DNA of 64,000 nucleotides from Isoetes taiwanensis. Its lineage: Eukaryota > Streptophyta > Lycopodiopsida > Isoetales > Isoetaceae. The position numbers and the translations under genes are program-made. Under the pieces are notes generated by a model. It did no database searches. It was not told the DNA's origin and worked only from the letters and a program-made list of their open reading frames with translations. Within the stretch, counting starts at the first letter, position 1, and every line of letters begins with the position of its first letter. This document shows positions 3,511-63,899 of the stretch, piece by piece. The stretch spans positions 3,462,829 through 3,526,828 of the forward strand of contig JAJEKV010000041.1 of assembly GCA_021234155.1 (NCBI GenBank), read 5' to 3'.

Positions 3511-4044
3511 ATCGCATCGATCCGAGACATCAGATCGCCATTCTAGAATGGGACGAGCATGCATGTCATGCATGCATGCGGGCGATGCATGCCCGTTTTG
3601 GTTGGGAGTTCGCTATTTCAGGCGCGTTTTTGCATCCTCGTCTCATCGGCGCTTCCTCTTCTCTCAGCAGTACCTTATTCTCTTTGATGTGTTTCCAGGC
3701 AGGGGAGGGGCTTCTTCCTGCCTGGTTTAGCCAATTTGGCGTCTCTTTCTTGCTATCCTTTACCGGTCTTTGGCCTCGTCCTGTGACCTTCGTCCTCGAT
3801 CCTATTTTGTAAGGAAGTTCTCTAGTAGTCGGGCGGTTTGTTGGTTTCTTGCGAGTCCCATTCTAGAATCGCATCGATCCGAGACATCGGATCGCCATTC
3901 TAGAATGGGACGAGCATGCATGTCATGCATGCATGCGGGCGGTGCATGCCCGTTTTGGTTGGGAGTTCGCTATTTCAGGCGCGTTTCTGCATCCTCGTCT
4001 CATCGGCGCTTCCTCTTCTCTCAGCAGTACCTTATTCTCTTTGA
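3511..4044 (+). repeat. Direct duplication of about 176 bp
   Basis: The block at 3511-3686 recurs almost exactly at 3868-4044, offset by 357 bp. Both copies start at ATCGCATCGATCCGAGACAT, include a run of ATGCATGC-type alternation, and end at TTATTCTCTTTGA. Only a few substitutions separate them, so the duplication is young. Confidence 0.93.
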
Positions 4045-4558
4045 ACCCACCCTCCCCCCCTTCTTTGTTTATTATATTTTGTACAAGTTCTGTTTATCAT
4101 GTTTTTCACACCCGCTGGGTGATGCTTTTTTTCCACCCGCTGGGTGATGCTATTCTCTGGTATGTTTTCTCGTTTGTTGTGTTGGTGATGTGCAGGTACA
4201 GGTTGGCGAGCGGCATCTGTTTCGACTTCTCCATGCGGGGGTTTTTGGGAGCGATTCTATGCCTGACGTTTGTCTAAGGCCCTTGCCGAAGGCTTATCAC
4301 TAGGGTTTTTCCTCGAAAACCCGAAAGGGCGGGGTTTTTTAATCCCGGTGATAAGCTTTCGGCAGGTACATCAGCCACTCTTCTATTAGCATTGTATTTG
4401 TTTGGGGTCCAAATGATATAATTGGATTTTCCCTTTATTTTTCGTGGGTAGTTCGCATGTGTGCGGCTACCCACTGTCCACCATTGTAGAAAATCTGCTG
4501 AGATGAATGAGAAGCCTATGGGCGGTTTGTTGGTTTCTTGCGAGTCCCATTCTAGAAT
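3831..4558 (+). repeat. Perfect 39-bp direct repeat bounding a 650-bp segment
   Basis: The same 39 bases, ending in the palindrome ATTCTAGAAT, occur at 3831-3869 and 4520-4558. The palindrome is also at 3540-3549 and 3898-3907, at the same place inside each copy of the neighbouring 176-bp duplication. The two repeat systems are therefore interlocked, as expected from unequal exchange or repair at ATTCTAGAAT. Confidence 0.9.
4285..4363 (+). other. LINE-type 3' hairpin (variant)
   Basis: Two 16-nt arms, 4285-4300 and 4348-4363, are complementary at 15 of 16 positions. They enclose the core shared with LINE 3' ends elsewhere in the window: a GGGTTTTTCC strand, then GAAAACCC-GAAA-GGG, then GGGGTTTTTTAATCC. 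The apical loop is GAAA instead of TTCG. The usual downstream terminal block and short-repeat tail are missing, so this is a detached or diverged copy. Confidence 0.7.
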
Positions 4559-5794
4559 GCTTATTAGCGGAATGCAGACATCAAACATGAAAGTTCTAAT
4601 TATATTCTTGAACTGCTCAACTTTTATACATCTGGGGGCATTTTTTGGCAGACTTCTTACTAATATGCATAATTCTCAACAGTTGTTGATCATTCATTTT
4701 CAAGTCCTATAGAAGATAATTCTGCATCAAAAAGTTGTCATTCATGTGATCACATTTCGCAGGTCACAATATGGATATATCTTTCTTATGCATTTGTTGG
4801 AAGCAAGAATCTTACGCATTTATTGGAAGCAAGAATCTTACGCAAGCTAAATAAGGAATTTGATTGAATGCTTGCACTATGATATTTCTTAGTAGTGCAC
4901 TTCAGAAAGAAGGAGAGATCTTGTGGTGGTGTATGTTATTCTATTTTTCACTGTTATTATGCTAGATATTTAAGTAATGGAACTATTTTTTTTTTTTCAT
5001 TTCTGTGAGCATGCAGATGCACTTCATTTCACTTTAGGGTTTCGAGGCCCACAGTTCTGGCTTTCATCTGTGAGCCCACCAGACCCGTAGTTTTGGATTT
5101 TATCTGTGAGCCCATAGATTAATTTCATTTCATTTCATATGTTTGGTTTGGTATATTGGGGATTGCAACATCTACATTAATGTATGCTATGGCACCGCCA
5201 GATCTAGCAGGCGGCTAGTTATCCATTAGGTATGTCGGACCCTTATAGAGCTCCATTTGCGTGCGCGGATTAGGGAGGCAAAGGCAAAGGCAAAGGCAGG
5301 TCGCAAGCAGCTCCACATAAGGTCTGTGATACGAATTCAAGTATTTATAGAGCTAGGAACCTCGAACGAATTTATAGCTTAAGACAAGAGCTAGAGTAAA
5401 TCAGAGACAAGTTGCATTCCACAGGTTATATACTGAAAACTGGCTTATCGGCTTAGCAATGCACTCCAAGTAGAAACCCATTAAAACCTTCTCAATTAGT
5501 TTATGAACAAGGAATTAGGCCTGGGATCAATTCCGAACCCTGATGTTTCTTGTAAGCCTTTTATGCTTGTCTCCAAGCTCTCGTTTTCTTTAGTAATGAT
5601 AAACAGAAGTCTTTTTGTGAGACTCCAATTTCTGATCATTCAGGATTTGTCAGTGCAATATTGAATCGGCTAGTTAAGAATGGCAACGTAGCATACAGTC
5701 TTTGGATAGAGGAATCAGAAGAATTGCTGCAGGCCAAGTCAGTTATACTAAATCCGAATGACAACAAGTTAAGCAATTTGGCCTTTATGATTTA
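4380..5794. other. Spacer without a recognised gene
   Basis: AT-rich sequence with a T-run near 4985. A short imperfect tandem duplication at about 5045-5118 contains the repeated phrase ATCTGTGAGCCCA. No supported coding region. Confidence 0.4.
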
Positions 5795-9269: not shown

Positions 9270-9779
9270 ACATTCAAAGAAGAAGAGGTGAGGAAAAAGA
9301 AACGTCGGGATCATGGGCGTGGCGGCGGTGCTCTCTTGTCTCAACCTCAAGAGCACTTGTGGCCAAGGCGAGAGACTCCCAAACCAAAAGAGCCTCGCAT
9401 CTGTAGTTCTAAAACTATTGTGAACAATAGGTTACATTGTGCTAGAATTGCATGGGCTGCAACAAAGAATAAGATGCATGGGAACTATGAGGAGGATGAT
9501 TTTTGGTGCAGCCTATCAGACTTAGATGCCGGTGGATCCTAGCCGAGATGCCCTATGGTGCTGGAGCTAGTGATCACATGACCCGGTCGAGGGGGAGGGA
9601 GATGTTTGAACAGGGTAAATTCGATTGCGGACAAAAGGCAAGTCAAGATTGGCAAAGGCAAGCTGACTATCAAAGGAGTAGGCACTGCAACAATGAAACT
9701 TCCTATTGGAGCAGTACAGTTGGAGAGCACACTATATGTACCTGATTTAAAGGTAAATCTTCTGTACATTGATCAATTG
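9270..9779 (+). pseudogene. Copia gag-pol fragment (protease to pre-integrase)
   Basis: Frames on the plus strand carry pieces of a Ty1/Copia polyprotein. GASDHMTRSRGREMF is the aspartic protease region; the usual DSGAS reads GAGAS. A frameshift then leads to KRQVKIGKGKLTIKGVGT and LYVPDLKVNLL, the stretch before the integrase zinc finger. No LTR, integrase or Copia RT follows. At about 9765 the reading frame passes straight into LINE reverse transcriptase. It is a decayed piece only. Confidence 0.8.
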
Positions 9780-11212
9780 GAAGAATGGCTTGATAATCAT
9801 GGCGGCGGAGGTCCACATTTTGCACACTATATCATTAGGCAACTTATGTATGCTGATGATGTTTCACTTCTAGCACATACCGCTACTAGTATGCAGCAAC
9901 ATTTACATGCTCTGCACAGTTTTTGTGAAAACACAGGTCTGCGTGTTAATCTCCAAACGACCAAGCTTTTGGTAGTTCAATCTTCTCGTCACAATGTTCC
10001 CCCTATGTACTATGATAGCCGCGAAGTTGAAGTTGTAGATAGCTACAAGTATCTTGGTGTAGAATTCTGTAAGAACACACTTTGGGAACAATGTATTACC
10101 AAGCGGGTGGCTGCTGGATGGAGAGCACTCTATGCAATGCAAAACAATTGTTTTCGCGCAGAAATTCATGATTGGCCACGGAAAGCCCACTTGTTTCGGG
10201 CTTTGGTAGAGCTGTTTTTACTTGTATGGTTACTCAAGTGTGGGGGCCTGCCATTAGTGCTAGTGCTTGGGAGAGCTTGGAGTGGGTGCAAAAGTCCTTT
10301 CTCACTTACAGCCTCGGAGTTAAAACAACGGTGCCCTATGCTATTCTTTTACAAGAGACAGGTTTTTGGCCTCTTCAACGCTCTGCCATGAAGCGCCATC
10401 TCCACTATATCTGCAAGGTGCACCACATGGATGATGTTAGGTATCCTGTTCTTGCACTTGCCATGGCTGAATCTCCTCAGCGTTTGAAACGATGTTGGAA
10501 AGAGCATTGCACTACATGGTTTGCCCGTTGGGGCAACAAGCGAAACCTTTGCGATGCTTGCTTGCCGTTTCGATCCCGAGCTTTTGCAACAATATCTCAA
10601 TGGTCGTTTTTCTCAAAAGATATGGGACGCCTTGATTACTTTGGCCCAAGTGAAAACCGGTCATTATCATGCACACATAAATCCCACCTTGGCACCAGGC
10701 CCCAAGCTTATTTGCTTGCTTCATTGTCCAGAACAAGCTTGTAGCTATTGCATCAATTCACCTGAGGGTCCCACAGTTTCGGATTGAGACAGGTAGATGG
10801 GAGCATCCGCAATTGCCGCGAGAAGCGAGACTATGTGCCTGTTGCCAGTTACAGGTTATTGAAGATGAAAGAAATGCTCTTCTGAGTTGCCCTGCTTTTG
10901 AGATAGTCCGGAATCGTTTTTTGACCTTAGCATTCCATTCCACGCTTCCACAACTTCTCAGGGCACCATCTGTGCATGACTTGGCATTATACATACTTGA
11001 GGTTCTAGATAAACGTCTGCAATTACTGAGCCCTCAGTAGTCATTATATCCGCTTGTCTAGTATCATCATTACTGCAAAGGTTTTTCCCTTGAAAACCTT
11101 TCGAGGCAGGGGTTTTTTAATCCTAGTAGTAATGATTGTACTAGCCCATTGTATGGGTCCCATGACCTATTGGTCTCCGTGGACGTTAAAAAAACTATTC
11201 TATTCTATTCTA
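9765..11212 (+). mobile_element. LINE (family A) 3' half: RT motif, C-terminal zinc finger, 3' end
   Basis: The fragment enters within the reverse transcriptase at YIDQLEEWLDNHGG and contains the catalytic block RQLMYADDVSLL. It then has the thumb-like region (YKYLGVEF, AGWRALYAMQNN, HLFRALVE), the conserved TVPYAILLQETGFWPLQ segment and the C-terminal CACCQLQVIEDERNALLSC zinc-finger-like region, with a stop at 11038-11040. At least two frameshifts (about 10210 and 10500-10780) break it. The 3' UTR carries the hairpin at 11066-11136, the terminal block GGTCTCCGTGGACGTTAAA, and a TTCTA-repeat tail ending near 11212. The 5' part, including the endonuclease, is missing and Copia sequence is joined instead. 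Confidence 0.9.
11066..11136 (+). other. LINE 3' UTR hairpin
   Basis: Arms ATCATTACT (11066-11074) and AGTAATGAT (11128-11136) pair perfectly. Inside lie GGTTTTTCCC, then GAAAACC-TTTCG-AGG, then GGGGTTTTTTAATCC. The inner CCT/AGG stem around TTCG replaces the CCC/GGG seen in other copies, so pairing is kept. Confidence 0.85.
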
Positions 11213-16562: not shown

Positions 16563-16606
16563 TCGCCAAAAGTAAAATCCAAAAAGCTTCTTCGAACCAA
16601 GCCCAT

Positions 16607-16741
16607 CTCCTCGAAAACCCTTCGGGGCGGGGGTTTTTTAACCCAGACAGTAATAAGTTTGCTGCGCTCCTTATGGGTCCCATAGGCCGATTGGCCTCAG
16701 TGGACGATAAAAAATCATTCTCATTCTCATTCTCATTCCCA
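16607..16741 (+). mobile_element. LINE (family A) 3'-end-only fragment
   Basis: The fragment begins inside the hairpin (GAAAACCC-TTCG-GGGCGGGGG), continues through GTCCCATAGGCCGATTGGCC and GTGGACGATAAAAAATCATT, and ends with a TTCTCA-type tail (CATTCTCATTCTCATTC). It is a strongly 5'-truncated insertion or a remnant. It lies directly upstream of the longer LINE. Confidence 0.85.
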
Positions 16742-18439: not shown

Positions 18440-20938
18440 CAAATAGGAATTGTGCCTCCAGATGGTATCGTAGAACTATCGGGGCTTCCCTTGGCAGAAA
18501 GGGGAGATTCTCAACTCTATTGCACCAGATATGGATCTCATTTTCCTCATGGAAACATGGGAACATGCAGGGCACAGGCTGCCGAACCTCCCAGGCTATC
18601 TGCATTTCTCGGTGTTCAATGAGTGCACAGGCAAGCGAGGACATGGCGGGGTTGCCTGCTACTATCGTGCAACCTTGCGGCATTCAGTCTCGCTGCACAA
18701 AACAGACAGGTACAATCGATACTTGTGGGTGCGCGTGCAGCATGACAGTGGCAGCGTTCTCTTCATAACATCATGCTACTTTCCACATGCCGAGAGCAAC
18801 TTTTATAACACTCATTCAGATGTGGATAGATTGGAGCCCTATGTCAATCTATATGATGATATACAGCAGCACAAACAGTTGGGCAAGGTTATGTTGCTTG
18901 GCGACTTTAATGCACGCACAGGAGCCGAGCAGGTCCCAAAATTTGAGCCCCTGGCAGAGGACGTCTTGCAGCTGAACCCCGCAGAGGTGGCTTGGTCAAG
19001 GGTGTAGAAGACAACCATATTTCGTGCTATGGCAGGCAGTTGTTGTTGCTAGGTAGTATCTTTGATCTGGTTATTTGTAATGGGTAAGCACAATGGTCAT
19101 CTTCCAGCTGCTGCACTTGTAGACAGGAGAATCAAGGGGGCAGCTCCAGTGTGGTGGATTATCTGCTGGTTGAGGAACATGATCTGCACCTGGTTGCCTA
19201 TTTCTCCATTGGAACAGTCAATCGGGACGAGGAAGTGGACTCGGACCACCAGCCCCTGTTCGTGCATCTCCATTGGCAAGCTCCCCATGCATCTACTGCC
19301 TCAACACCCCAGGTGCCCCAGCTGCGCCTGGACTACCGCCGTGCAGGGACCTATGCCCAGCTGCTTGAGCATGATCTGGCAGGACCGCTGCAACTCCCCA
19401 CATTTCAACAGCAATCTGCTGCGCTGACTCACCTGCTTCTGACAGCTGATGCTTTGGGAGAGGCCGCTCATGGCGAACCTCGGGTGCTACCACCTTCCCC
19501 CGCAACAGGTGGTTTGATGATGAGTGTCGGGAGCTCAAGCGCACACTCCAGCTGTTACTGATCCCACCTCCCGCCCACAGGCCATCAGTCAATACCGCTC
19601 CTTCCTCAAGAACAAGAAAGCCAGCTACCTCGCAGAGCATCAGCAACAGATGTTTGGTCTCCTGGATCGGCACCCCAAGACATTCTGGAGAAGGGTCTTG
19701 AGCAAGACTGCACAGCCCACAGGGAACATCACCCCCGGCAACGGGTACAAGATTTGCAAATGGCTTTTACGACCATTCTCGGGGCCGCATGAAGAGTCCC
19801 TCCACAGATAGGCATGGCTCTGGTCATCACAGAGGGGGATGTCATCATGAGCCTACAACGTCTGGCTAATGGGAAGGCAGCAGATTTAGATGGCATGCAG
19901 CGAAACTTCTGAAATGGGCTGGGCCTCCACTGGTGGCTGTTCTCACGGCGTTATTCAACAAAGCATTGCAAGAAGGCTTCCCTCCACAGTGGACCACTAG
20001 TAGAGTTGTGCCCATATACAAGGCAGGGGACCCTCAATGCCCGGCCAACTATCGTACTATTATGGTCAGCTCTCTCTTTGCAAAACTGTTGGCTGGCATC
20101 CTTGAGCAGCGGCTGACAATATGGGCAGAGGAGGCAGATATGCGAGCTCTCACACAGGCAGGTTTTTGGCCCAGGCATTCTACCATTGACCATATCTTCA
20201 CTCTGCGCACATTGATTGAGGATAGTAGGAATCACCGACAAAACCTGTATTGTTGTTTCATGGATTTCGCAAAAGCTTTTGACACAAAGGCCGGACAAAG
20301 GTTATAGGACGATCAAGGCGGTGGGGACTCCCCTTAACTTGCGTAATGCGTGTATAGGTCGCATGGCGAGGCATGCTCGGGCCGTATCACATCGTCGACA
20401 ACCGTGTCGGTAGTATTGAGTGCGTCAAGGTTGCCCCTCTCCCCACACTCTTTGGCCTCAGACATTGACCACCGAAGATTGGCTCTCTCGAACATGGAGG
20501 TGCGGGCCCATCTCATGCATCACACAATCCGGCAACTCATATATGCCGACGATGTCAACCTCCGCCTATACTCCGGAGGACATGCAACGCCACCGGATGC
20601 TCTCGACACTTTTTGCGATTCACCCAATGCGAAGTTAACTTGGCCAAAACTAGGGTGCTGCTAGTCTCATCATCCCGTCAGCCAAGGCTTCCCTCATTCA
20701 CTTACCAGGGACAGGATGTGGAGGTGGCTCCGACCTACAAGTACTTAGGAATCAAGTTCTCTACTACCACCCATTGGGATGCTGCCATCAGCTTGCGGGT
20801 CACGGCAGGTTGGAAAACACTCTATGCCATGCAGAACAACAGCCACAAGGCAGAGTTGTATGCCTGGGGCCACCAGTCACACTTATTTCGGGCATTGGTC
20901 GAGCCGGTCCTTTTATATGGGGCAGAAGTATGGGTGGT
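18440..20938 (+). pseudogene. LINE ORF2: APE-type endonuclease and reverse transcriptase
   Basis: The endonuclease is recognised by MDLIFLMETWEH (catalytic Glu region), GKRGHGGVACYYR, LGDFNARTG (Asp/Asn) at about 18898, and SDHQPLFVHL at about 19240. The linker has LQRLANGKAADLDGMQ. Reverse transcriptase blocks are GFPPQWTTSRVVPIYKAGDP, NYRTIMVSSLFAKLL, TQAGFWPRHSTIDHIFTLR, CCFMDFAKAFDT, APLSPTLFGL (usual QGCPLSPTLF) and IRQLIYADDVN. After this YKYLGIKFSTTTHWDA and TLYAMQNN follow. Breaks include a stop at 19007, frame changes near 19520, 19800, 20300 and 20620, and loss of the C-terminus. Cleavage of target DNA and target-primed reverse transcription would be its roles. Confidence 0.88.
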
Positions 20939-22064
20939 AGTGCTCCAAATAGATCTCATTTGGTCGGCAATGAAAGCTCAAGGTGCTACAACGGCATTGA
21001 TGGCCATGGCTGGCTATGGTGATGCATTTGGCTTAGAAGAAGAATATAGGGAATTAATTTTTAGGTAAAGCTACGGTTTAGGGGCAGTTGAGTCGTTGCT
21101 TAACCTTGAAGACAATAGCAGCTCTCAGCCTCTTTTTGTAACGACAACTAAGAAGGTTCAAAACAAAATCGATCGGCTCCCAGTTGTCCTCCAGCTCTGC
21201 TTTGACTGAAAACAAAGTTATCAGGAAAAAGATCTGTCTAGATGCTACAATTTATGGACTGAAGCTTTATCTTATGCCGGATACATGTATTGAGTGAGGA
21301 AATATGTTGAGCTCCAAGTCCTGCCAGATTTAGAAGCTTCTACCAGAATCTGTGATATTATCCATTTTTCAGGCTGCAAATCGATGAGCATCGTCCTTGG
21401 TACATAGCGAGTAGGTAAATATCTAGACATTAATCCTCTTCAACTGGAGATCAGAGTATGCTGTATGACATTATTTTTTTCGTTTTTTTTGTTCCAGAAC
21501 AAAGGCAACATTATTGTGGCTTCATTTCTTGCTCTGTTTTGACTGAGTTCGATTTGCAAATGTATGGGCTCTACATTTATGTTTTTTGTGGTTTTTATAC
21601 AAATATTTTCTTCTAACCTTCTTTTCTTTTGTACAGAGTTTTTGAATGGCATTTTGGGAACGAGATTACAAATGTTTAGAGCGGATGTAAGGTTAGATAT
21701 GATTGTTTATTTTTTGTTTTTATTTTTGTTTTTTGACTTGGCCAATATGCCCTCTAACATGGCTTTGTATAACGTTTGTGATCAGTTGGCTGGAGATTCC
21801 TGTCAATGGTACATATATGGCTTGTTGGAGAACCACATCATAGAATTAGAAAGTGTGATTTCCCTTACCGATTTAACATTAGTTCTGCTAATAACAATTA
21901 TGCATTGCCTGACAGTGACAAGACAAAGTTTGTGAGTAATTTCTTTGCAATAACTTTCTTTTGGTAACTAAACTAACTGTTTGAACATTTTGCAGAGACC
22001 AAGGGGAAGCATCCAGCACATGATGATTAAGATTATTATAAGACCAAGAAAGTTGATTTTGGTT
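20939..22064. other. Region after the LINE; one exon-like block
   Basis: From about 20955 to 21064 an open frame encodes MKAQGATTALMAMAGYGDAF and EEEYRELIFR, then meets a GTAAAG donor-like site. It differs from LINE proteins and could be a host exon cut by the LINE, but the family was not recognised. The rest, to 22064, is AT-rich with no supported gene. Confidence 0.3.
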
Positions 22065-23098: not shown

Positions 23099-23231
23099 GA
23101 ATCAAATAGCCCTTACAGATCAACTGTGCTTAGTTCCTTCTTCTAACCTCATAACCATTTGATTTTTTTGGCAACTTGCTGGAAACTTGCTGGCAACTTG
23201 CTCTGATTATAATATGATCAACATTCAACAC
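23099..23231 (-). repeat. 3' LTR start of Copia element
   Basis: On the minus strand a polypurine tract (AAGGGAGA, about 23231-23240) is followed by TGTTGAATGTTGATCATATT. About 113 bp of this sequence recurs at 29222-29334, with an extra 20-bp duplication (CAGCAAGTTTCC region) in this copy. TG as first bases and the polypurine tract mark it as LTR. Homology stops at 23099. Confidence 0.75.
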
Positions 23232-26200
23232 TCTCCCTTCATATTATAATCCCTGCAATTTATCCATTCTCTCAGCTTAACAAACCTATTTTCAATCAAA
23301 GGTTTTGTGAGAATGTTAGCCAGTTGGTTTTCAGTCTGTACATATTTTACCTGTACAATATTTCTGTTCACTAGATCACGGATAAAGTGCATTTCTAACT
23401 CAATATGTTTGCTCCTTTTATGCAAAACGGGATTTTTTGTCATTGCAATGCAACTAGTACTATCTGACTGCAAAATCAATGAATCTTTCTGAATGATTCC
23501 CAGTTCATTTAACAGTCTTCTACACCATAGAATTTCTTTGGCTGCAAGTGTAGTGGCTGCATATTTAGCCTCTGCAGTTGAAAGTGCTATTGAGTTTTGT
23601 TTTTTGCATTTCCAAGATATTGGCCCACCTCCTAGCATCAAAATAAATCCAGAAGTGGATTTTCTTTCATCAGGATCTCCACCCCAGTCTGAGTCACAGA
23701 ATGATTGAAGTTCTAAGTTTTCTGAGTTAAACATTATACCATAGTTGCTGGTACCCTTTAGGTACCTTAAGATCCTTTTTGCTGCCTGCCAATGATCTAT
23801 GCCTGGATCATTGCAATATCTACTCAGAATATTTACTGCATAAGAAATATCTGGCCTGGTACAATGTGCTAAGTACAGCAAACATCCAACTAACTCTCGA
23901 TATGGCAAACCTTGTGCTATAATTTCCTCCTTTTCTGTTTTAGGACATTGATCCTTTGATAATTTAGTTCCTGAAGGGAGTTTTCTTTGTTTTACATTCC
24001 TCCATGTTAAACCTTTTCAAGACTCCTGCCACATTTTATCCTTGAGATAAGGTCATAATTTTTCTTTTTCTATCTCTGTAAACTTCAATCCCTAAGAATT
24101 TTTTTAATTCCCCTAGGTCTGTCATCTCAAACCTATTTTTCAAAATGTCTTTGCATTGCTGTAAAATACTCATATTGCTTCCAATCATGACATTGTCATC
24201 TACATATAAGGCAATATAGCAGAATTCCTTTTCTCTCTTGAACTGATATATGTTTCCATCATCCTCAAGTTTTACAAAACCCTAATCTTTCAAATAGGAG
24301 TCCATACAGAGATACCATTGCCTGGGGGACTGTTTGAGTCCATAGACTGCTCGTTTTAACCTCCATACTTTTCCTCTCCCTTGCTCAAAACCAAGGGGCT
24401 GTTTCATATAAACATTTTCATCTAGTTTGGCATTCAGAAATGCAGTAGTCACATCCATATGGTGCGCTTCTAGATCTTGAGCATTTGCCCATGATAAAAG
24501 CATTCTAATGCTGGTCATTTTGACTATGGGAGAAAATGTATCCTCATAATCAATGCCTTTTCTTTGGGTAAAACCCTGTGCAACAAGCCTTGCCTTGTAT
24601 TTGACTGAATTACCATCAGTTCCTTGCTTGATTTTATAAATCCATTTACACCCTATTACATTTTTACCTTTGGGAAGATCTACTAGTTCAAAGGTATAAG
24701 TCCTTTTGAAAGCACTAAGTTCACTTTCCATGGCTTTGTTCCATTCTTTTGCATCAGCTGTATTTATGGCTTCTTCAAAATTCTCTGGTGCTTCAAAATC
24801 AAGCATTGCTAGTATTTCAACTAGATTTATTTCTGCAGAGATATTTTTTAATCTTCTACTTCTTCCAGAGGGGTCTCTACCATAGAGTTCAGTACTGACC
24901 TGAGCTTCGTCTTGCAATATTTGAGCATTAGTTCTTTTCTCATGGCCACTCCTTACTTTGGTTTCCTCATGATCTTTAGTTGCTGGTATATCTTCTTCAA
25001 AAGCTGGACCTTGTGTTTCTCCATTTGTTTGATCTTCCTGCACAATAGTGGTGTTAGTATCATCGTCATCAATTATAGATGCCATGTTATCCATTCTTTG
25101 TTCTGTCACACTTTCTTCCCTTTTTTCAACATTGGCAGGCATAGACTTGCTGGATTTATAGCACTGGCTTTCATCGAAAACCACATCCCTGCTTATAATT
25201 ATCTTCCTTTTTGTTGGATCAAACATCCTGAATGCTTTTGATTGTTCATCATAGCCTACCAAGTAAGCTATTTTTGCCCTGTCATCAAGTTTAAGCCTTA
25301 GCTCTTTGGGAACGTGTAGAAAACCTAGACAACCATAGGCTTTTAGCTTATCAAACTCAGATTTTCTTCCTGACCAAAGCATCTCGGGCATTGCTCCATT
25401 AATGCTTGTAGAAGGCAACATATTTTGAACTTCTACTGCTATTTTTACAGCCTCCTCCCAAAGGAAATTGGGTAATCCTGTATGTTTCAACATGGCTCTG
25501 ACAGCATTAAGGATTGTTCTATTTTTCCTCTATGCTACACCATTTTGTTGTGGAGAGAACCTGCATGTGAGTTGCCTCTTAATCCCTTTAGTTTTGCAAT
25601 ATGCTTTAAATTCTCCAGATAGGTATTCTCCACCCCTGTCAGATCGAATGCATTTTATTTTCCTTTCAGTTTCAAGCTCAACTTCTCAGCAAACATTTTG
25701 AATGCCTCAAAGGCCTGATCTTTGCTTCTCAAACATACACATTTGGTTTTTCTACTGAAGTCATCGATAAAAGTAATAAAGTATCTTTTTCCAGACATAC
25801 TTCTCACATTGAGAGTCCACATAAATCTGTGTGTATAATATCTAATACTCTCTTTGCTCTTTTATTTGATTTTTTAAAAGGTAATCTTGAGTGCTTCCCC
25901 ATCATGCAACCATAACAAATTTCTTCTCCTTTGCTCAGATTTTCAGCCTTAATCATTCCCTGTTTAATCATGATCTCTATATTTTTGCTACTGGTGTAAC
26001 AGAGTCTTTGATGCCATGTATTTATATCAGGAACAATGATTGCATTAATATTAGGCAGATCATGAATGCTCAAACCAAAGAGATTCCCCACTCTTTTTCC
26101 AAGAAACTTTATTTTATTCCCAAAAAGCACAGTACATTGGAGTTTGTCAAAAATGACTGTATACCCCATATCTACTAACCGACTTACTAAAATTAAATTC

Positions 26201-26958
26201 CTGACTAGTGTTGGTACACACAACACATCCTTCAAAACTACAGCCTTTCCTTGCAGATCAAACAGCTCCAATGTGCCTCCACATTGAACTTTCTGCAATT
26301 CTCCATTTCCAAGTTTAATGAACCCAGTCCTTCCTTCATTCTCTTGCTTGAGCAATTTGGTTGATCCAGTCATTGTTTTTTCTGCTCCACTATCTAGTAG
26401 CAGCATGTCATTCAAATCATTAGATTCCCCTTTTGAAATAGATAGAATATCATTTTTCCTTACCTCAGCATCCTCATCTATCTCACTTGAGTCTTCTTCA
26501 GTTTCTTCAGCCAAATTTACTGCTGCATTCTGCTTTCCATGTGCTTTGCCTCGACCTCTAAAAGTTGGCCTGCCTCTGTTGCCTTTTCCCCGTCCTCCTT
26601 TGTTGCTGGAGCACTTGCTTGCAAAGTGGCCCTTCCCTCCACAATTATAGCACTCCACTTCTCTTAACTTAGGACAATCTACTTTAAGATGTCCATGCTC
26701 TTTGCAGTGATAACAAGGTCCAACCTGCCTGTTTTCCTTTAAATTGCTGGAGCCATTTCCTTTATACTTCCCTCTGCCAGTATAATCATCAAAAAGTACC
26801 TTATGCTGCTCGAACTCTGTTCTTATCATGTCTTCAGCTGCCTCTCTAGTTTTTGCTACATTTCTAATTAATGTAGCTAGCTGTTTGTTCCCCTCCACAG
26901 CTCTAGCTATGTGTAAGAGCTTCTGTTGCTCAGTTAAAACCACTCCTGCACCTTCCAA
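23225..26958 (-). pseudogene. Copia pol: zinc knuckles, protease, integrase, RT, RNase H
   Basis: Two CCHC knuckles (CYHCKEHGHLKVDC and CYNCGGKGHFASKC, near 26630-26720) end the gag part. Protease follows with MLLLDSGAEKTMTG. The pre-integrase block has DINTWHQRLCYTSS and CYGCMMGKHSRLPF. The integrase core is interrupted by frameshifts around 25500-25800 and resumes at GLPNFLWEEAVKIAVEVQNM. RT has EWNKAMESELSAF, GCKWIYKIKQGTDG, ARLVAQGFTQRKGIDY, LDVTTAF-type HMDVTTAFLNAKLDENVYM and an ALYVDDNVMIG catalytic block at about 24200. RNase H carries YRELVGCLLYLAHCTRPDIS, KRILRYLKGTSNYGI, STSGFILMLGGGPISWK and ALSTAEAKYAATTLAAKE. Frames change at about 25800, 25500, 24280 and 23910. Confidence 0.9.
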
Positions 26959-27041
26959 ATCTGCTATTATATTGTCAAACTTGGAAAAAAACTTAGTAAG
27001 ATCATCATCATCTTTGAGTCTTAGTTTCCTAAGTGATTTGT

Positions 27042-27419
27042 CTAGTATTCGATTTGAGAAGATGATTTCTCTTCAAAGTGTTTGAGTAAATACCTCCAGA
27101 TTTCTCCAGGTGCCTTTCCTCTTACCTTGAGTAAAATGGACGCTCCAACTTTACTTGTCAAGCTTGCATAAGCCTCTTTGATCTTTGCATTTTCACTTCC
27201 ACCACTGCTCACTGTTGTTCCTGTTGCATTTGTATCAGAAGAGCTACTCTCCCTTCTAGCTGCAACTGCACTTGAAGATTCATAAGAATCCTGCATAAAA
27301 TCCCATAGGTTTTCATTTTCTAGAACATTTTTAATTTGTTCTTTCCATATTTGAAAACCAGGACCACCTTCATAGACCTTAATACCAGATAGAAGAGATG
27401 CCCCAAATTTGCTAGACAT
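27042..27419 (-). pseudogene. Copia gag N-terminal region
   Basis: ATG at 27419 lies 10 nt after the primer-binding site and encodes MSSKFGASLLSGIKVYEG, FQIWKEQIKNVLEN (typical UBN2/gag W and helix pattern) and ASILLKVRGKAPGEIWRYLL. The frame breaks near 27042; the next part of gag resumes near 26958 with TEQQKLLHIARAVEGNKQL. Gag would form the particle core. Confidence 0.8.
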
Positions 27420-27429
27420 TTTGAACCTA

Positions 27430-27441
27430 GCTCTGATACCA
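27430..27441 (-). promoter_or_regulatory. Primer-binding site (initiator tRNA-Met)
   Basis: TGGTATCAGAGC on the minus strand is the standard Copia primer-binding site, complementary to the 3' end of plant initiator tRNA-Met. It fixes the element's orientation and the end of its 5' LTR at about 27443. Confidence 0.88.
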
Positions 27442-27443
27442 CT

Positions 27444-29221
27444 GTTGTAATTAGAGAAATACAATGTCTAAATGATGGGGCTCAAATCTTCTACAATCAA
27501 ATGCAAAATAGCCTATTCAACTTTTCTTCTTATATTCAATGAAATAGCTAACTTGACTTAACCATTGGTCATTACTGTAGCAAGTTTATTGAATAGAATA
27601 TTGTAGCACAAGAAATGAAAACAAATCCAATAGTCTCGACAGCTCGCGATTCTAGACTTGAAGGTCAACGATTGCGTGTTCATGAATCTTTGATCTAGCG
27701 AATTTCTTTAATGAATGAATGCTCATGCATATTTGACCTAGCAATTTCATGAGAAAATCGTTGGTGCTCATATGACCATTGATACTTATAGCTAAATATA
27801 GGTCCTTATCAATCGATCGAATGAAATAGTGCCAAGGAAAATTGTTATTCATAGAGCTCATATGATTTATTGGCGACAATGTGAATATACGCAATTAGGA
27901 TCATGCTTTGAATTATTCAAGATTGCTTTTGCATTTCTCGTAACTCTTTATTGCATGAAAGTGAAGCATGTTTTATTCTAAGTTGCTGCCTAGGTGAAGT
28001 TCAGTATCTGAACATCTATTGCCTTTTGCTAGATGGTACAATGGATATGAATATTATTTGAGTTTAAAAAAAGGATCTTATGTTGGTAGCAAAAGGGTTA
28101 TTATCTACACCATACCTGTCGAGCTCCTCATCACTCCAATTATGCAAGGGAACCTCTAAATCATGCATGATAAACACTTAAAATAATCCAAAATCCTCTT
28201 TCATACAAAATGTGCACTCTATGGATACTAAATACTATACCACAAAGAATGCATTGGCAACTATAAGTACAAATATACACTTGGCCCAACATAAAACTAT
28301 GCTACATATAATGGTAGAAAACATAGACCACACCATGCAACCAGTAGACAAGTCAATGTACATAACCTAAGTTTTACGAATAAGGATCATGCTCTAAAAG
28401 GAGTGCAAAAATAGATATAATCATTGGAATTACTAGTTAATATAAGAAATTATGCTCAAAGTTCGTAATGACTTTAAGGATTGAAACAAGTGTATAAAAA
28501 AACAACATCATAAACCAACATAATAGCCTGCTAACATGCATAGTAAATAAGCATGTGCCAAAAACATATAACACACTTCCAAAATCAAACATGGTTCTTG
28601 AACTAATAAAAAAAGCTTGGGAGGATTGAAACTAGGTTAAAACCATGTATCTGATCATGCTAACCAGTATGTAAAATCATCATAGATTATAATATTAACA
28701 ATGTAGGCTCAAAAATCACCTCCTAAACTAGCAATAATTTTAAGAAACTAGTGTAAGACATAGAATTAGTATGAGAACTATGATCAAAGTAGTAGTGATA
28801 TTACAAAACCATGAAAGTCATCTAGTTTTCATTGACATTACGAGTTGCATGTATTAAAAACCACCCTTATACTGGTTTCCATCATGATTATGAATGCGAG
28901 TTACTTTTTGGGGGCCTTGTGTCGGGCATTCATCCCTTGATGAATCCACGCTATATACATAAACAGATCAATCCTTCTTATATTTTATCAGCAGTCGGCA
29001 CCATTCCATAGAGGATCGACACCAATTTCTCAACGTCGGTTTCGCTCCATTGCTTGCTATTTGAATCATATAATGTGGCCTTAGTTTATTCGACCGACGA
29101 CCACATAAATACATTGAACCATATAAAACCAGTTAACACACCTTAGGACTATGGTCACTAATAGGTTCGAAAACCATAATATAATGCTGGTTCTGCCCCT
29201 TTCAACCCAAGTGGCCTAGCT
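27444..29221. other. Unassigned DNA between the two parts of the Copia 5' LTR
   Basis: About 1.7 kb of AT-rich sequence without a recognised gene separates the primer-binding site from the matching LTR start at 29222-29334. A TATA-like stretch (GAATATAAGAAG, minus strand, near 27535) could belong to the LTR remainder. The rest is probably a later insertion, but its ends were not found. Confidence 0.4.
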
Positions 29222-45477: not shown

Positions 45478-45953
45478 AAGATAGAATAGAATATGATTTT
45501 ATCGTCCACGGAGACCAACTGGCCTATGGGACCCAAGTACAAAGAGAGAGCAGCAGGGGTATTACTACCAAGATTAAAAAACCCCCGCCCCGAAGGGTTT
45601 TCGGGGGAAAAACCTTAGTAGCAATAAGGATGCTGGCATACTGCACAGTTATATACATAATCACAAGTACAGCTGAGGTTAATGTCGGACAGGGGGCATA
45701 ATTGAGTCCGCGTATCCATTACCTCCCGGAGGTACGATCCCAACAAGCCTACAGAGGCCGTGCTCAGTAGCTCATGCAAGGCCTGATGGGGCACAACTAA
45801 CCGAGCATACCGAGCCCGGATACGCTGGTACGCCGAACAGGCCTGGAGGGCGTGACTTTCATCCTCAATGGCGCCTTATTGACAGCACTGACAGATCGTC
45901 CTCACGCGGCTCCCGAATCCATCTCCCTGTCTCAATGCGGACCTATAAATTGG
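45478..45953 (-). mobile_element. 5'-truncated LINE family A insertion
   Basis: On the minus strand it runs from VRIETGRWIREPRE and AIEDESHALQAC (C-terminal zinc-finger region) through the 3' UTR hairpin (45560-45626) and terminal block (GGTCTCCGTGGACGATAAAA) to an ATTCT-repeat tail at about 45480-45495. It lies precisely between family B pieces 3 and 4, so it inserted into that LINE. Length about 475 bp. Confidence 0.88.
45560..45626 (-). other. LINE 3' UTR hairpin
   Basis: In the minus-strand RNA, TATTGCTAC pairs with GTAGTAATA with one G-U pair. The interior has GGTTTTTCCCCC, GAAAACCC-TTCG-GGGCGGGGG and TTTTTTAATC. Stem bases differ from the 11.07-kb copy but pairing is kept. Confidence 0.85.
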
Positions 45954-53798: not shown

Positions 53799-53866
53799 AT
53801 AGAATAGAATAGAATAGAATAGTTTTTTTAACGTCCACGGAGACCAATAGGTCATGGTGGACGTTT
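53799..53866 (-). mobile_element. Minimal LINE family A insertion (68 bp) with target duplication
   Basis: On the minus strand the insertion is the terminal block only (GACCTATTGGTCTCCGTGGA, CGTTAAAAAAAC) followed by a TTCTA-repeat tail of about five units. It is bounded by perfect 11-bp direct repeats TTTTATATAGA at 53788-53798 and 53867-53877. The duplication identifies it as a genuine target-primed insertion that stopped after about 45 nt of cDNA. Confidence 0.9.
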
Positions 53867-58404: not shown

Positions 58405-59250
58405 AATTCACAATTGTTTGTGTTTCGACCTTACCCTTAATTTCTGCAAGCTCACCTAATCAACTAATTTTGTCCTATAAAGAATCATACAAGTAAACTA
58501 TAAGTGAAAGAATAGAATCAAAATTGATAAAGTGATGTCGTTATTAATCTCTAAACTTTTAGTCATTTGGACCAATGATGATTTGCGACTAGACCACAGA
58601 TAGCAGTCTATTTTGATTTGTTATAGTAAAAGTTTTTCATATTTTTCTTTGGCTCTTCTTGCATTGGTTCCTTGATATGAGATTGTTTGAGGATGTAAAT
58701 TTGTAAAGTCATATCTTAAGCCACAAATCTAGAATAAACATGGAAGACATAATATAATTGATGCTATCTATTTTAGTACAATCCTCAAGATAATGAGCAA
58801 CAGATATTTAGTATGAACAATGTGGTCCAGGAGCTACTCATCTCCCAAAACTCAACTTGAGATGAGACTATAGACCAAGGCAGGTACATAAATCATTTTT
58901 TATTTTTTTAACCATGCCTTTTGCTCTTTTCACAAGCTTATGTTTCCCCCGCCCCGAAGGGTTTTCAAGGGAAAAACCTTAGCAGTAATAGGTCTGCTGG
59001 CATGCTGTACAATTGTGTAGGACAGTTCAATACCGTTCCGGAGGACACAACTGAGTCCGTGTGAACATGAAGCTTTTAGTACTTGACCCCTGGGTCTGCT
59101 AGAGCATAACTCGCAAGAATGGGAGCAGGTACATTTTTGTGTATTTCTTATGTGAAGCTAACTACCACATATGAATTCTTAGAAAGGGATTGGCTATTGT
59201 GTCCTTGATTTTATACGATACTTTTTGTAACCTTAAAATGCCCTTTAATT
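58405..59250 (+). repeat. Second copy of part of the CACTA element
   Basis: 58405-58944 aligns with about 48032-48600, and 59057-59250 with about 49035-49230, in the same orientation (for example AATTTTGTCCTATA, GAATCATACAAGTAAACTAT and TTATGTGAAGC). The piece corresponding to 48600-49035 is missing, and LINE 3' sequence (58945-59057) stands in its place. The terminal CACTA repeat is not present at 59250. Confidence 0.85.
58945..59057 (-). mobile_element. LINE family A 3' fragment cut inside the hairpin
   Basis: Minus strand reads TATTACTGCTAAGGTTTTTC, GAAAACCC-TTCG-GGGCGGGGG, then stops; the distal arm, terminal block and tail are gone. The upstream part matches the 3' UTR start near 45630-45700. 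It lies within the second CACTA-type copy. Confidence 0.8.
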
Positions 59251-59795
59251 TTTGTTTTGGTTGTTATCGAGATGTTATTTATTTGGTTTAGGAAAAAAAT
59301 GAAAAGTAAAAAAACATGGGTAAGTTCATGAATCACATATAAACTATTAAATATAGCACAAATGCCATAACACACTAAAACAAAAATTTTCAATTTTTTT
59401 GTTCAATACAAAGTGTGGTCGCATTTGTTTTTTTTTTCAAACTAAAAAACACAAGATATCCATCCCCATAGCCATGAGCTCAACTCATGCACCCTGTTTG
59501 CGAGACTGCTGCAAACAACCACTCCAAATGCATGGCTGTTATATTCCATGTCTATTATGAGGTCATGCTTGCCAATGTACGTGACTTGGCGTCGATGCTT
59601 CTGTGATGTGAATTTTATTGTGGTTGTATATATTAAATAATTAAGGAGATGACGTAGCATAAGGGGTGATGTGGCAATGAAGTAATTAAAGGAAGTTAGA
59701 ATTAGGAAAAAAAAAAGGGGAAAACGTAAGAAGGAGGAAGGAAGGAGGAGATCTCGGAATATAAAAAAGAGAAGGAAGGAAGGAAGGAAGTATAT
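59251..59795. other. Spacer before the minus-strand LINE
   Basis: 59265-59420 resembles 53155-53300 (both contain CATATAAACTATTAAAT and a nearby CCATAACACAC). A GGAAG/GGAAA purine tract at about 59705-59795 precedes, and includes, the LINE tail. Confidence 0.5.
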
Positions 59796-59885
59796 TTTAA
59801 CGTCCGCGGAGGCCAAACTTGACCTATGAGACGGTACATGCAGTACACAAAGCAGATAAAACGACACGCTACTATACAATGTGTC

Positions 59886-59939
59886 CCTACTACTGGGATG
59901 AAAAAACCCCCACATGGGAGGAAAAACCCTGGTAGTAGG
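59886..59939 (-). other. LINE 3' UTR hairpin (short form)
   Basis: CCTACTAC and GTAGTAGG pair perfectly. Inside are AGGGTTTTTCC, CCC-ATGT-GGG and GGTTTTTTCATCCC. The GAAAAC strand of the longer form is lost and the loop is ATGT. Confidence 0.82.
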
Positions 59940-60104
59940 CTCTCAGATCCCTTGTCTTGTAAGGGATTCTCTGACGGTAGAGACTTGCAAAATGTAGGAT
60001 GCGAGACGTGCAACCATTGACGATGCCAGCAATTGATGCAGCGGTGCTGCAGATCATCTAAGATTAGCATGTGTTGCTCGGATATGCGTATATGCCGGAC
60101 ACTC

Positions 60105-61822
60105 TTACAGAGCATGGTGCTCATCCTCTACTGTCCGCATGTGGCAACACTGGCATATTCTCTCATGCCGAGGGATTCTCTGCCCTCCATCTGTAGTCCA
60201 ACGACCTGTTTCAATTCTGAGATGATGGGACCCCGTCCTCACGGAGGCAATAGCTCTCCGTTTCTTCATAGATATATGCGCTTTCAAGTACTGGTGTGGG
60301 CCATGTTCCAGTGTTGGATTAACTTGCGTGTGGTAGTGCTCTGTTTTAGGCTTTGCACGAGTGGCTGCATCCCACAGAGTGGTGGCAAAGCGCTCATTCA
60401 GGTGTGCAACCTGTCCCTGAGCATCAGGCATAGCCACAATCTGCTGGTAGTCTATATACCACGTTGCGAACCACCCCTGACAATGCTCCTGCCATACCCT
60501 CCTCAGTTGTTGTGGCTCTTGTGCCAATAACAAAGCCCTCGGGGGAAGACGTCGTGCATCCATGCTGGTGACCTTGTGGAAATATGCAAGATGTCTGCGC
60601 ATAGCGGAATGTTGCAGGGGCCAGAATCCAGTCTCATATAGCAAAATCTGATAAGGCACCGTGTCCTTGATGCCTAGGCTGTATGTTAAGAAGGCCTTTT
60701 GCACCCTCTCTAGCTTATCCCGTGTGTTCTTGCTAATTCTTTGGACCCCGGACCTCTACCCCATACAACAATACCGGTTCAACGAAAGTGCTCACGAACA
60801 GTGTGCTCTCGTGCCCGTCACATAGATCTATTCTCAGAAGCGCCTATTCTCATAGCATAGCATACTGGGCTTTCCATCCCGCGACCGACCTTTCCCACAC
60901 GGTCATCCCATAACATGCTAGCGCAAAAAGTCGATTCCCGGATACTTGAAGGTCCTTACAACATCCACCTTCGTCCCTCTCGTAATAGAGATCTGGGATA
61001 TCATCTTTGCGAGGAGAGGACCGCCAAGAGCTTAGTTTTCTGCGGGTTCACCGCCATTCTGTTGTGTCCGCGTAACTCACTAAGAGCGTCCAAATGCTTT
61101 CCGCATACTCTTGGTCGTATGGGATAGCAAGTCTACATCGTCTGCGCATAGAGCAATTGCCTTATACCGTATGCCTCGATAGTCAGCTGGGGCCACCGCC
61201 CCATGTTCTTGCATCCGTGTCTCCAACTTGTCAATGTAGAGACCAAAGAGCGTTGGAGATAATGGACATCCCCGTTTAACCCCTATGGTGCTAGCAACTT
61301 CGGCGGTCCGATGCGCATAATGCAAAGATATATCCCATCATAGAGTCTATAGATGACATTTTGTAAGTCATGTGGGGCATGCAGCACCTGCAAATGCTGC
61401 CACAACAGGTCCCAAGGTTCCGTATCATATGCCGTCTTGAAATCTATGAAACAGCAGTACAGGTCACGCCACGCATTGCGAGTAGCTTCCATAAGGATTC
61501 TGAGAGTGAATATATGGTCGATTGTGGAGTGGGCAGGGCAAAACCCCGTCTGGCCAACTACACGCACTCCAGCTTCCTCAGCCCACTGAGTTAACTTTTT
61601 CTCCACCACACCTGCTAAAAGCTTTGCGAGTAATGGGCTCACCATGATCATGCGGTAGTTCACCGAATCATCCTTATTACCTGTCTTATGAATTGGGGTG
61701 ATCTTGCTAACCATCCACTCCCCTGGGAGACCCTCCCTTATGGCCTGGTTAATGATCGCTGTCAGAGGCCCTAGCAAAGCTGGCCCACCCCATTTCAATA
61801 ACTCGGCTTGAAGTCCCTGCAA
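60105..61822 (-). pseudogene. LINE reverse transcriptase and zinc-finger C-terminus
   Basis: RT blocks: LQGLQAELLKWGGPALLGPL, WMVSKITPIHKTGNKDDSVN, YRMIMVSPLLAKLLAGVVEK, VGQTGFCPAHSTIDHIFTLR, LYCCFIDFKTAYDT, then VKRGCPLSPTLFGLYIDKLE. The catalytic block reads ALCADDVDLL, with Cys where YADD has Tyr. The frame is then lost for about 350 bp and resumes at KAFLTYSLGIKDTVPYQILL, YETGFWPLQHSAMRRHL and ERICQCCHMRTVEDEHHAL near 60105-60704. Tyr-to-Cys before ADD is one base change and probably a decay mark. Confidence 0.88.
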
Positions 61823-62145
61823 GTCCTTCGCTTTGCCATTAGCCAGGTGTCTAAGGCCCTGTTGGGTGTCTTCCTACTGATCTGGAACCCCAGCAGCTGC
61901 TCCTGGGGGATCATACAACTCCTCCAAGCGATGCATCCACTGGTCTATGGTAATATTGCCGGGTGGTTGATGCCTCTTGTACAACACCCTACGCCAGAAG
62001 GCTTTCGGCTCGGTCATCAACAAATCAAACATGCGCTGTTGATGGTATGCAATGTACGCATGCTTTTTGGATTTCAAGAATGCTCTATAATCCTGAATGG
62101 CCTGCTGCCGCAGCTGTGGATCTGAGACGAGGCGTAGTTGGGTCT

Positions 62146-63120
62146 TTAGAGCCTTGCACTCAGCGTCAAACCAGGATTCTGAGGGAACTGCGCAGTGTCC
62201 ATTCGCGAGCGATCCCTCGCTGCAAAGCATGCACTAGCTGCTGTGAGTAAGGCGTTTACAAGCCACTCCCCCCTATCATGTAACGTGAAAAGGGCATCAA
62301 TTCCCTGCAGTTCACGTTCCAACACAAACTCATATTCTGCTTGCTTTCGATAGTCGGGGGTGTATCTCAACCCCTGATGGTTTCTACCTTGTGATTGCGC
62401 TACTGAGTGCTCCCAATCCAAAGTGACATAAAGTGGATAGTGGTCCGACAAAGCCTCCTCATCTCCTGTTCGTGTGCCAATTGAGAGCTCTCTGATCATG
62501 TCAAGTCCTACCACTGGAGCAAGGAGATAGTCTACCATGCTAGCTCCACCATCATGTCTATCGCTCTTGCAAGTAAAACCCCCTGATTGCGGCCATCTGA
62601 GCATACCATTGCACACTACCATGTCAAAGACCTGACAGAGTTGAACCAACTCCCTTCCAAAGGCTTTGGTGACTATATCTTGAGACTATCTGGCATGTTG
62701 GGGTGCAGCTGTTTCAAGCCAGAGTGGGTCAGAATCGGCCTCTCCCTGGAAGGTAATCGACTGCAGCTGTGCAGTGCGGGCATTGAAATCTCCTAACAAG
62801 AGCACATGCCCTTGCTGGCGATATTGCTTTATGTCATCATACAGATCTCTATAAGGCATTTGTACATCCGTGTCTGCCTCCTGGACCTAGTAGAACTTAG
62901 AGGCTGCATGGGGTATATAACAGCGTGCAATAAACAATGGACGATCTTTGAGGCTCCAAAGATTCTCACCCACGTAGCGGTTAAGTCTGTCAGCCTTGTG
63001 GAGCGAGACCGTGGCTGCTATAGCATCTTTGAAGTAGCATGCCACCCCTCCATATCCTCGCTTTCCATGGCGCGCATTAGCGAGTCCGACAGCTGATGCC
63101 CACGATATTCCCATGTCTCT
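62146..63120 (-). pseudogene. LINE APE-type endonuclease region
   Basis: Contains GKRGYGGVACYFKDAI, SLHKADRLNRYVGENLW, FIARCYIPHAASKFY, then after frame changes LLLGDFNART near 62790, DMVVCNGMLRWPQSGG, GGASMVDYLLAPVVGLDMIR, DEEALSDHYPLYVTLDW and, after another break at about 62230, SWFDAECKALKTQLRL. Asp/Asn (GDFN) and SDH catalytic blocks are kept; the N-terminal Glu block was not located. Confidence 0.82.
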
Positions 63121-63899
63121 TGCAAGAAGATAATGTCCATACACAGAAGCGATCCCAAAGAAGGCCGCCGCCCTTCTTCCGTGGGAATCCCCTACGGTTC
63201 CATGATACAAGCTGGAGACACCGTCCCTATCTTTGCCTGTGGCGGTTGTCCCGCACCGGCTCCGGGGGTTGCGGGGGCCGTTCAGTGGTGCCCGAAAGCA
63301 CCGGTCCCGGGCTGCTGCATCCGGTTTGCCGCCTCCGGAGGTGAAAGGTCTAGATGTCCCCGCCCCCATCGCCGCTGCCTCAAGCATCTTGTTGGCGGAG
63401 GTACAAACACCTTCATCTTGCCATTAACCAAGCCCGCCGATTCCCCGCCTTTGTCGACTTGTCCGATTTTTGTGAACTCCTCTCGTCTCTCCTTTTGTTG
63501 CACCGGAGTAAGATCTGCGTGTCCAAGTATATTGATGTCCCCTTCAACCGCTAGCGTTGCGTTCGCAATAGAGTCTTCGATGCCCGGTCCAACATGGAAT
63601 TTGACCACGGGGGTCTCATGTTTGGCCCCCGACTACGGGTCGGGTTTCTCCCCCAAATCTTTGCGGTTGTAGTCCGCCTAGCACCGGGGGCATTAAGCTT
63701 AGCCGCGCAGATCTTCCCCATGCTCTTCGTGAAAAGCCCCTGGACAATGAGGTTCAACCGACGGGATTGGCGATCCCGCTCCTCGCTGGCGACCTGCCTG
63801 ATTCCCCTCGGGCCACCTCTCGCCTCCAAAGATTGAACGCATCTGCTGATACCGCGCCTCGGCAAAGACTGCTCGTTTCATCTCCGAAATGGAGGTCAT
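63121..63899 (-). pseudogene. LINE ORF1 remnants
   Basis: Pieces of the ORF1 RNA-binding domain are visible in different frames: RQSRRLNLIVQGL, EDSIANATLAVEGDINILGH and ADLTPVQQKERREEFTKIGQ, the last matching the QDLTPMQQESRRQQL block of the 17.9-kb copy. ATG candidates lie at 63865 and 63899. The coiled-coil part is mostly beyond recognition. Confidence 0.65.

Follow-up and report, generated by a model that had tools for sequence, protein, structure and literature searches.

An ENE-like hairpin with a probable role in RNA stability, near the 3′ end of LINEs and in other repeats of Isoetes taiwanensis

In a 64-kb stretch of the Isoetes taiwanensis genome (the window), a hairpin occurs at six places; its letters differ from copy to copy, yet the pairing is preserved. 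The original prediction took this structure for the recognition element of one LINE family (family A), which raises the question of what reads it: the reverse transcriptase of that LINE or something else. Elements for nuclear expression (ENEs) are known to engage a poly(A) tail, or an A-rich tract, in U•A-U triple helices. Covariation of the fold, its spread over several kinds of repeat and an encoded A4–A8 tract of fitting length all support reading the hairpin as a probable RNA stability element of the ENE type, situated in the 3′ untranslated region (UTR) of a plant LINE.

Layout of the hairpin in the window

A covariance model trained on 19 copies, four of them from the window, recovered exactly the six predicted places (E<1e-5), including two cut copies that were outside the training set (58906–59002 and 16577–16668); up to E 1, its only further match in the window was the antisense of the 11066 copy (E 0.43). 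Direct reading of the sequence confirmed the stem and loop letters that had been quoted. The stems are longer than described, as the outer arm of the 11066 copy extends through CTAGTA/TACTAG to 11058–11144, and the described layout, right as to the stems, had left out the key feature, an internal loop made of two U tracts. When the window was shuffled 100 times, three of four core patterns stood above all shuffles and the fourth (7 matches) was equalled by 2 of the 100.

In the 11066 copy, a two-part lower stem closes in GG/CC and is followed by five U's opposite six (U5/U6); above this loop stand a short G-C-rich upper stem, a bulged GAAAA, a three-pair apical stem and a UUCG loop. The other three complete copies in the window share this plan in different letters (UUCG or GAAA loops); the family F copy (59886) has a plain AUGU-capped stem without GAAAACC, and one clamp pair of the 45560 copy is G-U. 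Across 19 aligned copies from several families, the common core reads GG-U5-CC...GG-U6-[A/C]AU-C[C/U], ending in CC in 18 copies and in CU in the 45560 copy. Three features of an ENE were present: two U tracts facing each other in an internal loop (U5 and U6, both in the 19-copy alignment and in each of the four complete copies of the window), flanking G-C pairs (GG/CC and CC/GG clamps) with stems supported by pairing, and a position near the 3′ end with an A-rich tract, here an A4–A8 run 49–72 nt downstream that is a candidate partner. The predicted open-loop fold lies 0.3–3.3 kcal/mol from the minimum in four window copies of four families. No Rfam family matched the hairpin at its curated threshold, and five weak Rfam matches in 221 bases (best E 0.56) were taken as chance.

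Table 1 Positions of hairpin copies, LINE parts and other features in the window
Feature	Position	Strand	Basis or remark
Whole ENE-like hairpin, LINE family A	11058..11144	+	Direct reading, covariation, covariance model
Family A outer arm CTAGTA/TACTAG	11058-11063/11139-11144	+	
Family A stem ATCATTACT/AGTAATGAT	11066-11074/11128-11136	+	
ENE core, family A copy	11080..11123	+	Direct reading, alignment
Family A core, 5′ side: GG clamp; U5	11080-11081; 11082-11086	+	
Family A upper stem CCCUU/AGGGG	11087-11091/11108-11112	+	
Family A GAAAA bulge; apical CCU-UUCG-AGG	11092-11096; 11097-11106	+	
Family A core, 3′ side: U6; AAU; CC clamp	11113-11118; AAU; 11122-11123	+	
Terminal hairpin, family A (GUCC/GGAC, GACC/GGUC)	11158..11184	+	Candidate RT-recognition stem-loop
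Encoded A7 tract directly 3′ of terminal hairpin, family A	11188..11194	+	Candidate third partner of the U5/U6 loop
(ATTCT)n tail, end of family A LINE copy	11195..11212	+	
RT and C-terminal coding remains, LINE A	9582..10744	+	RVT_1 9582-10391, E 1.2e-6, slightly below Pfam cut-off
ENE-like hairpin, LINE family B3	45547..45638	-	Covariance model; U5/U6 loop, second C of 3′ clamp replaced by U
B3 copy terminal hairpin (45504-45532) and A4 tract (45497-45500)	45497..45532	-	
ENE-like hairpin, LINE family F (without GAAAACC)	59873..59949	-	Covariance model
Family F U tracts: U5; U6	59922-59926; 59901-59906	-	
LINE F terminal hairpin and A4 tract, then (TTCC)n tail	59795..59833	-	
Coding remains, LINE F, upstream of ENE	60105..63423	-	RVT_1 61283-61873, E 4.4e-8, above Pfam cut-off
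3′ part of ENE-like hairpin, 5′-truncated LINE copy (16607)	16577..16668	+	Covariance model
16607 copy terminal hairpin AGGCC/GGCCU and A6 tract	16678..16714	+	
Terminal hairpin and A7 tract, then tail (53832)	53823..53863	-	Copy truncated below ENE
ENE-like hairpin cut on 3′ side, broken copy	58906..59002	-	Covariance model
ENE-like hairpin, repeat family C (not LINE)	4280..4369	+	Covariance model
Family C copy holding the 4285 hairpin	3896..4559	+	Inverted repeats CATTCTAGAATGGGAC at 3896-3911 (+) and 4544-4559 (-)
Copia element	about 23225-27467		RVT_2 match 24282-25529
Pentatricopeptide-repeat gene with DYW domain	33254-34759		PPR, E-motif and DYW matches

Covariation and copies across the genome

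That pairing is kept through sequence change, as originally claimed, is borne out by a tree-aware test. We aligned 63 LINE copies (the 61 LINE loci described below and two window copies), dropped L082, L091 and L092, which are truncated at the hairpin, and compared the remaining 60 with 300 simulations in which the changes of each column were placed independently on the tree; compensatory branches were counted with both sides of a pair resolved jointly, on a tree rooted on one copy. The whole ENE showed 8 compensatory branches in 7 of 26 pairs and a paired fraction of 0.935 (null mean 0.669, maximum 0.781), and no simulation reached either value. For the lower stem, 6 compensatory branches fell in 5 of 18 pairs and the paired fraction was 0.913 against a null mean of 0.577 (0/300 simulations); when its partner was shifted by 1–3 columns, pairing fell to 0.14–0.65 and compensatory branches to 0–2. 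The lower-stem columns lay outside the search pattern, so their covariation is not due to the selection of loci; two upper-stem pairs were fixed by that pattern. Taken alone, the upper and apical stems are less strongly supported, with 2 compensatory branches in 2 of 8 pairs (reached by 3/300 simulations) and a pairing of 0.985 (reached by 7/300).

Across families, 88% of cells in the 19 copies were paired (0/500 shuffles as high) and two-sided changes occurred in 12 pairs (3/500 shuffles); the count of further pair types was not above shuffles (341/500). The pair beside the clamp was A-U in 9, G-C in 8 and C-G in 2 of these copies. In 13 of 23 dereplicated loci the pairing of the free outer arms exceeded all 200 shuffles, and the ten others include truncated, gapped or decayed copies.

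We searched the assembly from which the window comes (1.658 Gb in 1110 contigs) with a pattern in which the core was fixed and the apex and outer arms were left free. This yielded 8642 exact matches (4232 + 4410), compared with 0 for the reversed pattern; among 257 Gb of prokaryotic genomes three stretches fit the core pattern, and none did in a viral collection. One hundred of the 8642 loci (the first by contig number) were fetched and clustered by their flanks into 61 LINE loci, 30 of family C, 4 of family D, 2 of family E and 3 singles. Because the core letters, U5 and U6 included, were fixed by the search pattern, their constancy in these loci is no evidence. Two LINE families look young: with 11000–11200 as the query, 40 scored matches out of 960 candidates (window included) were 99–100% identical over the whole query, and with 59780–59990, the 40 scored matches out of 1801 candidates were, apart from the window itself, 93–94% alike to it. 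In 30 of 30 loci fetched for family F (window copy included) the ENE core was identical, with GAAAACC absent and the clamps and U tracts kept.

A complementary search started from the second hairpin of the LINE 3′ end (terminal hairpin, below), whose pattern matched 5203 times in the genome (2634 + 2569; control 0). Fifteen of 50 terminal-hairpin loci listed from contigs C1–C33 had the exact core upstream. We read by eye 20 of the other 35: 16 carried a variant hairpin and four were 5′-truncated before or within it, and the covariance model matched 17 of the 20 at E<1e-3, one truncated copy among them. The hairpin is thus a regular part of the LINE 3′ end, present in all copies read that were long enough to hold it. 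The 16 variant loci, which were chosen for their lack of the exact core, differ in their U tracts (U3 to U8, some of them interrupted), and some of these copies look decayed and rich in indels. In three loci (L143, L155 and L161) the U loop is shortened (to U4/U3 in the first two) and GAAAACC is lacking, yet the AGGCC/GGCCU terminal hairpin is perfect. Many small indels lie in or before the ENE of L146, L148, L151–L153 and L156–L158, where the 3′ arm and 3′ end look mostly intact (the 3′ hairpin of these loci was fixed by the search pattern); these could be copying errors on a structured RNA, assembly noise or decay.

Host repeats and the LINE 3′ end

The LINE copies share a 3′ order of ENE, second hairpin, A run and short repeat tail (Table 1). 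The terminal hairpin takes the form GUCC...GGAC with an inner AGNCC/GGNCU, and GACC/GGUC occurs in family A. By pattern, 58 of 61 LINE loci had the A4–A8 run 49–72 nt past the core. Inspection showed an A run in two of the remaining three loci but none in L105, and at least four A's were present in 20 of 20 loci fetched via the terminal hairpin. The free inner pair of the terminal hairpin was G-U 51 times, A-U 34, G-C 13 and G-G twice in 100 listed places and never A-C; since the copies are related, these counts do not make a rigorous test. By the tree-aware comparison, the terminal hairpin had no compensatory branch, and its paired fraction was 0.989 (7/300 simulations as high).

The assignment of these copies to LINEs agrees with coding remains for a reverse transcriptase upstream of the 3′ end (RVT_1 in the A and F copies) and with 5′ truncation (copies 16607 and 53832), (ATTCT)n or (TTCC)n tails and a probable target site duplication. 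In the one copy examined for such a duplication (53832, minus strand), CTATATAAAA stands on both sides. At the 5′ junction of this very short copy (53823–53870), ACGTCCAC reads as the reverse complement of the 3′ hairpin arm of the copy itself, as a snap-back during copying would leave it. An Exo_endo_phos match (18474–19007) occurs in another LINE of the window and none was found in two pieces of the F copy; that other LINE copy (18474–21068, plus strand) also has a weak RVT_1 match, and near its end the covariance model gives no ENE match. Just before the RT remains of LINE A, in the same open frame, lies a Copia-type Pol_BBD match (9615–9785), likely a nested or chimeric junction. A sequence search of the PDB with a piece of a LINE RT gave no match. 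Among the matches listed (>150 nt), six A loci matched the B3 locus L010 over 166–170 nt at 75–80% identity, starting 24 nt before the clamp, and one of the six had one further, upstream match of 154 nt. This likeness, confined almost wholly to the last 166–170 nt from ENE to tail, fits a role in either stability or enzyme recognition.

The original assignment to a LINE does not extend to the 4285 copy, which sits in a repeat with inverted ends, about 200 nt from the repeat end (family C). A search of the family C flanks (400 or 1500 bases, at most 2 or 3 mismatches) found the start motif in 11 of 30 loci and the end motif in 12 of 30, the latter mostly 212–225 nt past the core and followed by unlike sequence; a similar inverted motif occurs in two of the four family D loci. 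Neither the terminal hairpin end of the LINE nor its tail was found in any of the 30 family C or 4 family D loci. Families C and D have the same core as the LINE, each within an outer stem of its own, and the upper hairpin lacks the LINE specificity of a stem-loop recognized by one reverse transcriptase. In the window, a piece neighbouring the family C copy (3539–3870) ends at 3539 (plus) and 3870 (minus), and the short repeats in 3539–4559 have palindromic inverted ends (CATTCTAGAATGGGAC).

Families D (L019, L031, L067 and L088) and E (L027 and L035) have parts of the outer ENE stem in common (AGTGA.CCCATTA ... TCACTA) while their other flanks differ, which may reflect shared descent or the passing of a module. 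In L035, GTCC...GGGAC, ATAAAT and a (TATTC)n tail follow 476 nt past the core, and L027 diverges just before this point; family E may thus represent a further LINE whose 3′ UTR is long, and because of this LINE-like tail we do not count it against recognition by a LINE enzyme. The search for hosts of C, D and E covered one to two open reading frames near one locus each. An open frame near a D-type ENE (L141:1098–2231; DUF7869 match, 9.4e-41) runs on the strand opposite to the ENE and was for this reason rejected as the family D host; a pogo-like transposon was dropped as the identity of family E, as there was no family match.

Reading of the hairpin and its alternatives

How might such an element act? 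The G-C-clamped lower and upper stems would keep the U5/U6 internal loop open, about five A's would enter it to form U•A-U triples, and the resulting triple helix would bury the 3′ region of the RNA and shield it from decay. LINE RNA stabilized in this way may be more available for retrotransposition, as reported for the Arabidopsis element Evade. Candidates for the A strand are the encoded A tract, in the manner of MALAT1, and an added poly(A) tail. We take the encoded tract seriously because the tail of the LINE is (ATTCT)n or (TTCC)n rather than poly(A); it could serve priming instead. The bulged GAAAA was set aside by reasoning, as a linker of one nucleotide above a five-pair stem would have to place it in the triplex, and a pseudoknot of GGUUUU/AAAACC with CCCUC/GGGGG is possible on paper. 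The LINE enzyme would, on this proposal, read the separate terminal hairpin and the repeat tail, and the former is more likely than the upper hairpin to be what it recognizes. A more specific version, in which the U5/U6 loop traps the element's own A tract and the reverse transcriptase opens the triplex from the terminal hairpin and tail, is a tentative possibility; that version takes in both the protection of an RNA without poly(A) and a core module common to transposons of another kind.

The explanation first offered, recognition of the hairpin by the LINE's own reverse transcriptase (which would make the U loop incidental), is right about the conserved pairing and gains from the 3′ block that is alike between A and B3 while the upstream DNA mostly differs; stringent-type LINEs, moreover, are described as requiring a 3′ stem-loop (PMC4176376). 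Yet the same core occurs in repeats other than this LINE, which makes a LINE enzyme an unlikely reader of the motif: its presence in C and D is expected if it is read via poly(A) or A-rich RNA, and not if it is read by the enzyme of one LINE. A plain stem-loop signal, furthermore, needs none of the ENE anatomy of a G-C-clamped U5/U6 loop, and a second hairpin, one form of which has 5,203 pattern matches in the genome, stands directly at the tail. We therefore consider enzyme recognition of the upper hairpin unlikely. The apex suggests another role, that of a switch in which GAAAACC zips up one U tract (it can pair with either) and the hairpin opens on binding an A-rich RNA or a protein. Although the pattern left the apex free, 83 of 100 apices contain GAAAACC and 89 contain AAAACC, the 19-copy consensus fold prefers GAAAACC paired with GGUUUUU (a helix paired in 100% of lettered cells), and the predicted minimum of the 11066 copy pairs it with the 5′ U tract, by 1.6 kcal/mol. 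The helix of GAAAACC with the 3′ U tract, however, shows no compensatory change (0/7 pairs), whereas one upper and one apical pair of the ENE do, and GAAAACC is missing from family F and some variants; such a switch seems distinctly improbable.

Compensatory change alone fits DNA as well as RNA, and the hairpin might be a DNA-level feature (a cruciform or one involved in recombination) or else a repeat module that is neutral and has no role in RNA. Several copies have indeed lost the stem (the 10 of 23 representatives not beyond shuffles), and the ENE positions with a G-U state are as many as those with an A-C state (13 each). By cells, however, G-U exceeds A-C by 153 to 23 in the ENE and by 31 to 2 in the terminal hairpin, whose free pair was never A-C in the listed places, and among states found in at least 5 of the 60 copies G-U occurs at 7 pair positions and A-C at none. 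This excess of G-U is what an RNA strand would be expected to show, though the copies are related, and we regard a purely DNA-level or neutral origin as very improbable.

An ENE-type stability element, the reading we prefer, has precedents. In Evade (Copia93) of Arabidopsis, according to PMC12501189, triplex formation depends on the U tracts as well as on the G-C pairs beside them, and the ENE stabilizes the RNA and raises transposition. The hairpin resembles that element in its U-rich internal loop, G-C flanks and location in the 3′ UTR of a plant retrotransposon; unlike Evade, described there as an LTR retrotransposon with a poly(A) tail and four U-rich tracts, it belongs to a LINE, with one U5/U6 loop only and an A tract encoded near the end. 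The same source credits Tycowski 2016 with about 200 ENE motifs that come mainly from plants and fungi and show a strong association with LTR retrotransposons, and PMC10855403 names the double ENE of a rice transposon, TWIFB1. Our copies are of the same class as these plant and fungal transposon ENEs and differ as single ENEs in LINEs and other repeats, in thousands of copies within one genome. As in MALAT1 and MEN-beta, a U-rich internal loop is followed by an encoded A-rich tract (PMC11411715, PMC10855403). Those are described as cellular long non-coding RNAs from which a tRNA-like element is cut off after the A tract, with linkers of 15 and 25 nt (PMC11411715), whereas the LINE has a repeat tail, and a hairpin stands between its loop and its A tract. 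The terminal hairpin with (ATTCT)n resembles the stem-loop and terminal repeats of the ZfL2-1, ZfL2-2 and UnaL2 tails; for ZfL2-1 and ZfL2-2, PMC4176376 reports that the stem-loop is needed for retrotransposition and that protein binding was demonstrated. Compared with the elements of that source, the ENE-like hairpin is an additional structure, placed upstream and containing a U loop.

ENEs in plant transposons are thus already known, and a LINE ENE with an A tract of its own appears to be new: our literature search brought up no paper on an ENE in a LINE and none joining ENE, triple helix and non-LTR retrotransposon, and Tycowski 2016 may already list LINE ENEs. If the ENE reading is true, a LINE would guard its RNA by a triple helix, not relying on poly(A) alone, and stability and enzyme recognition would be divided between two separate structures at its 3′ end. 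One ENE core across kinds of repeat, in thousands of copies, raises the question of module exchange between transposons. Elsewhere in the window, the frame at 32092–33408 looks, by eye, like the first part of the pentatricopeptide-repeat gene listed in Table 1.
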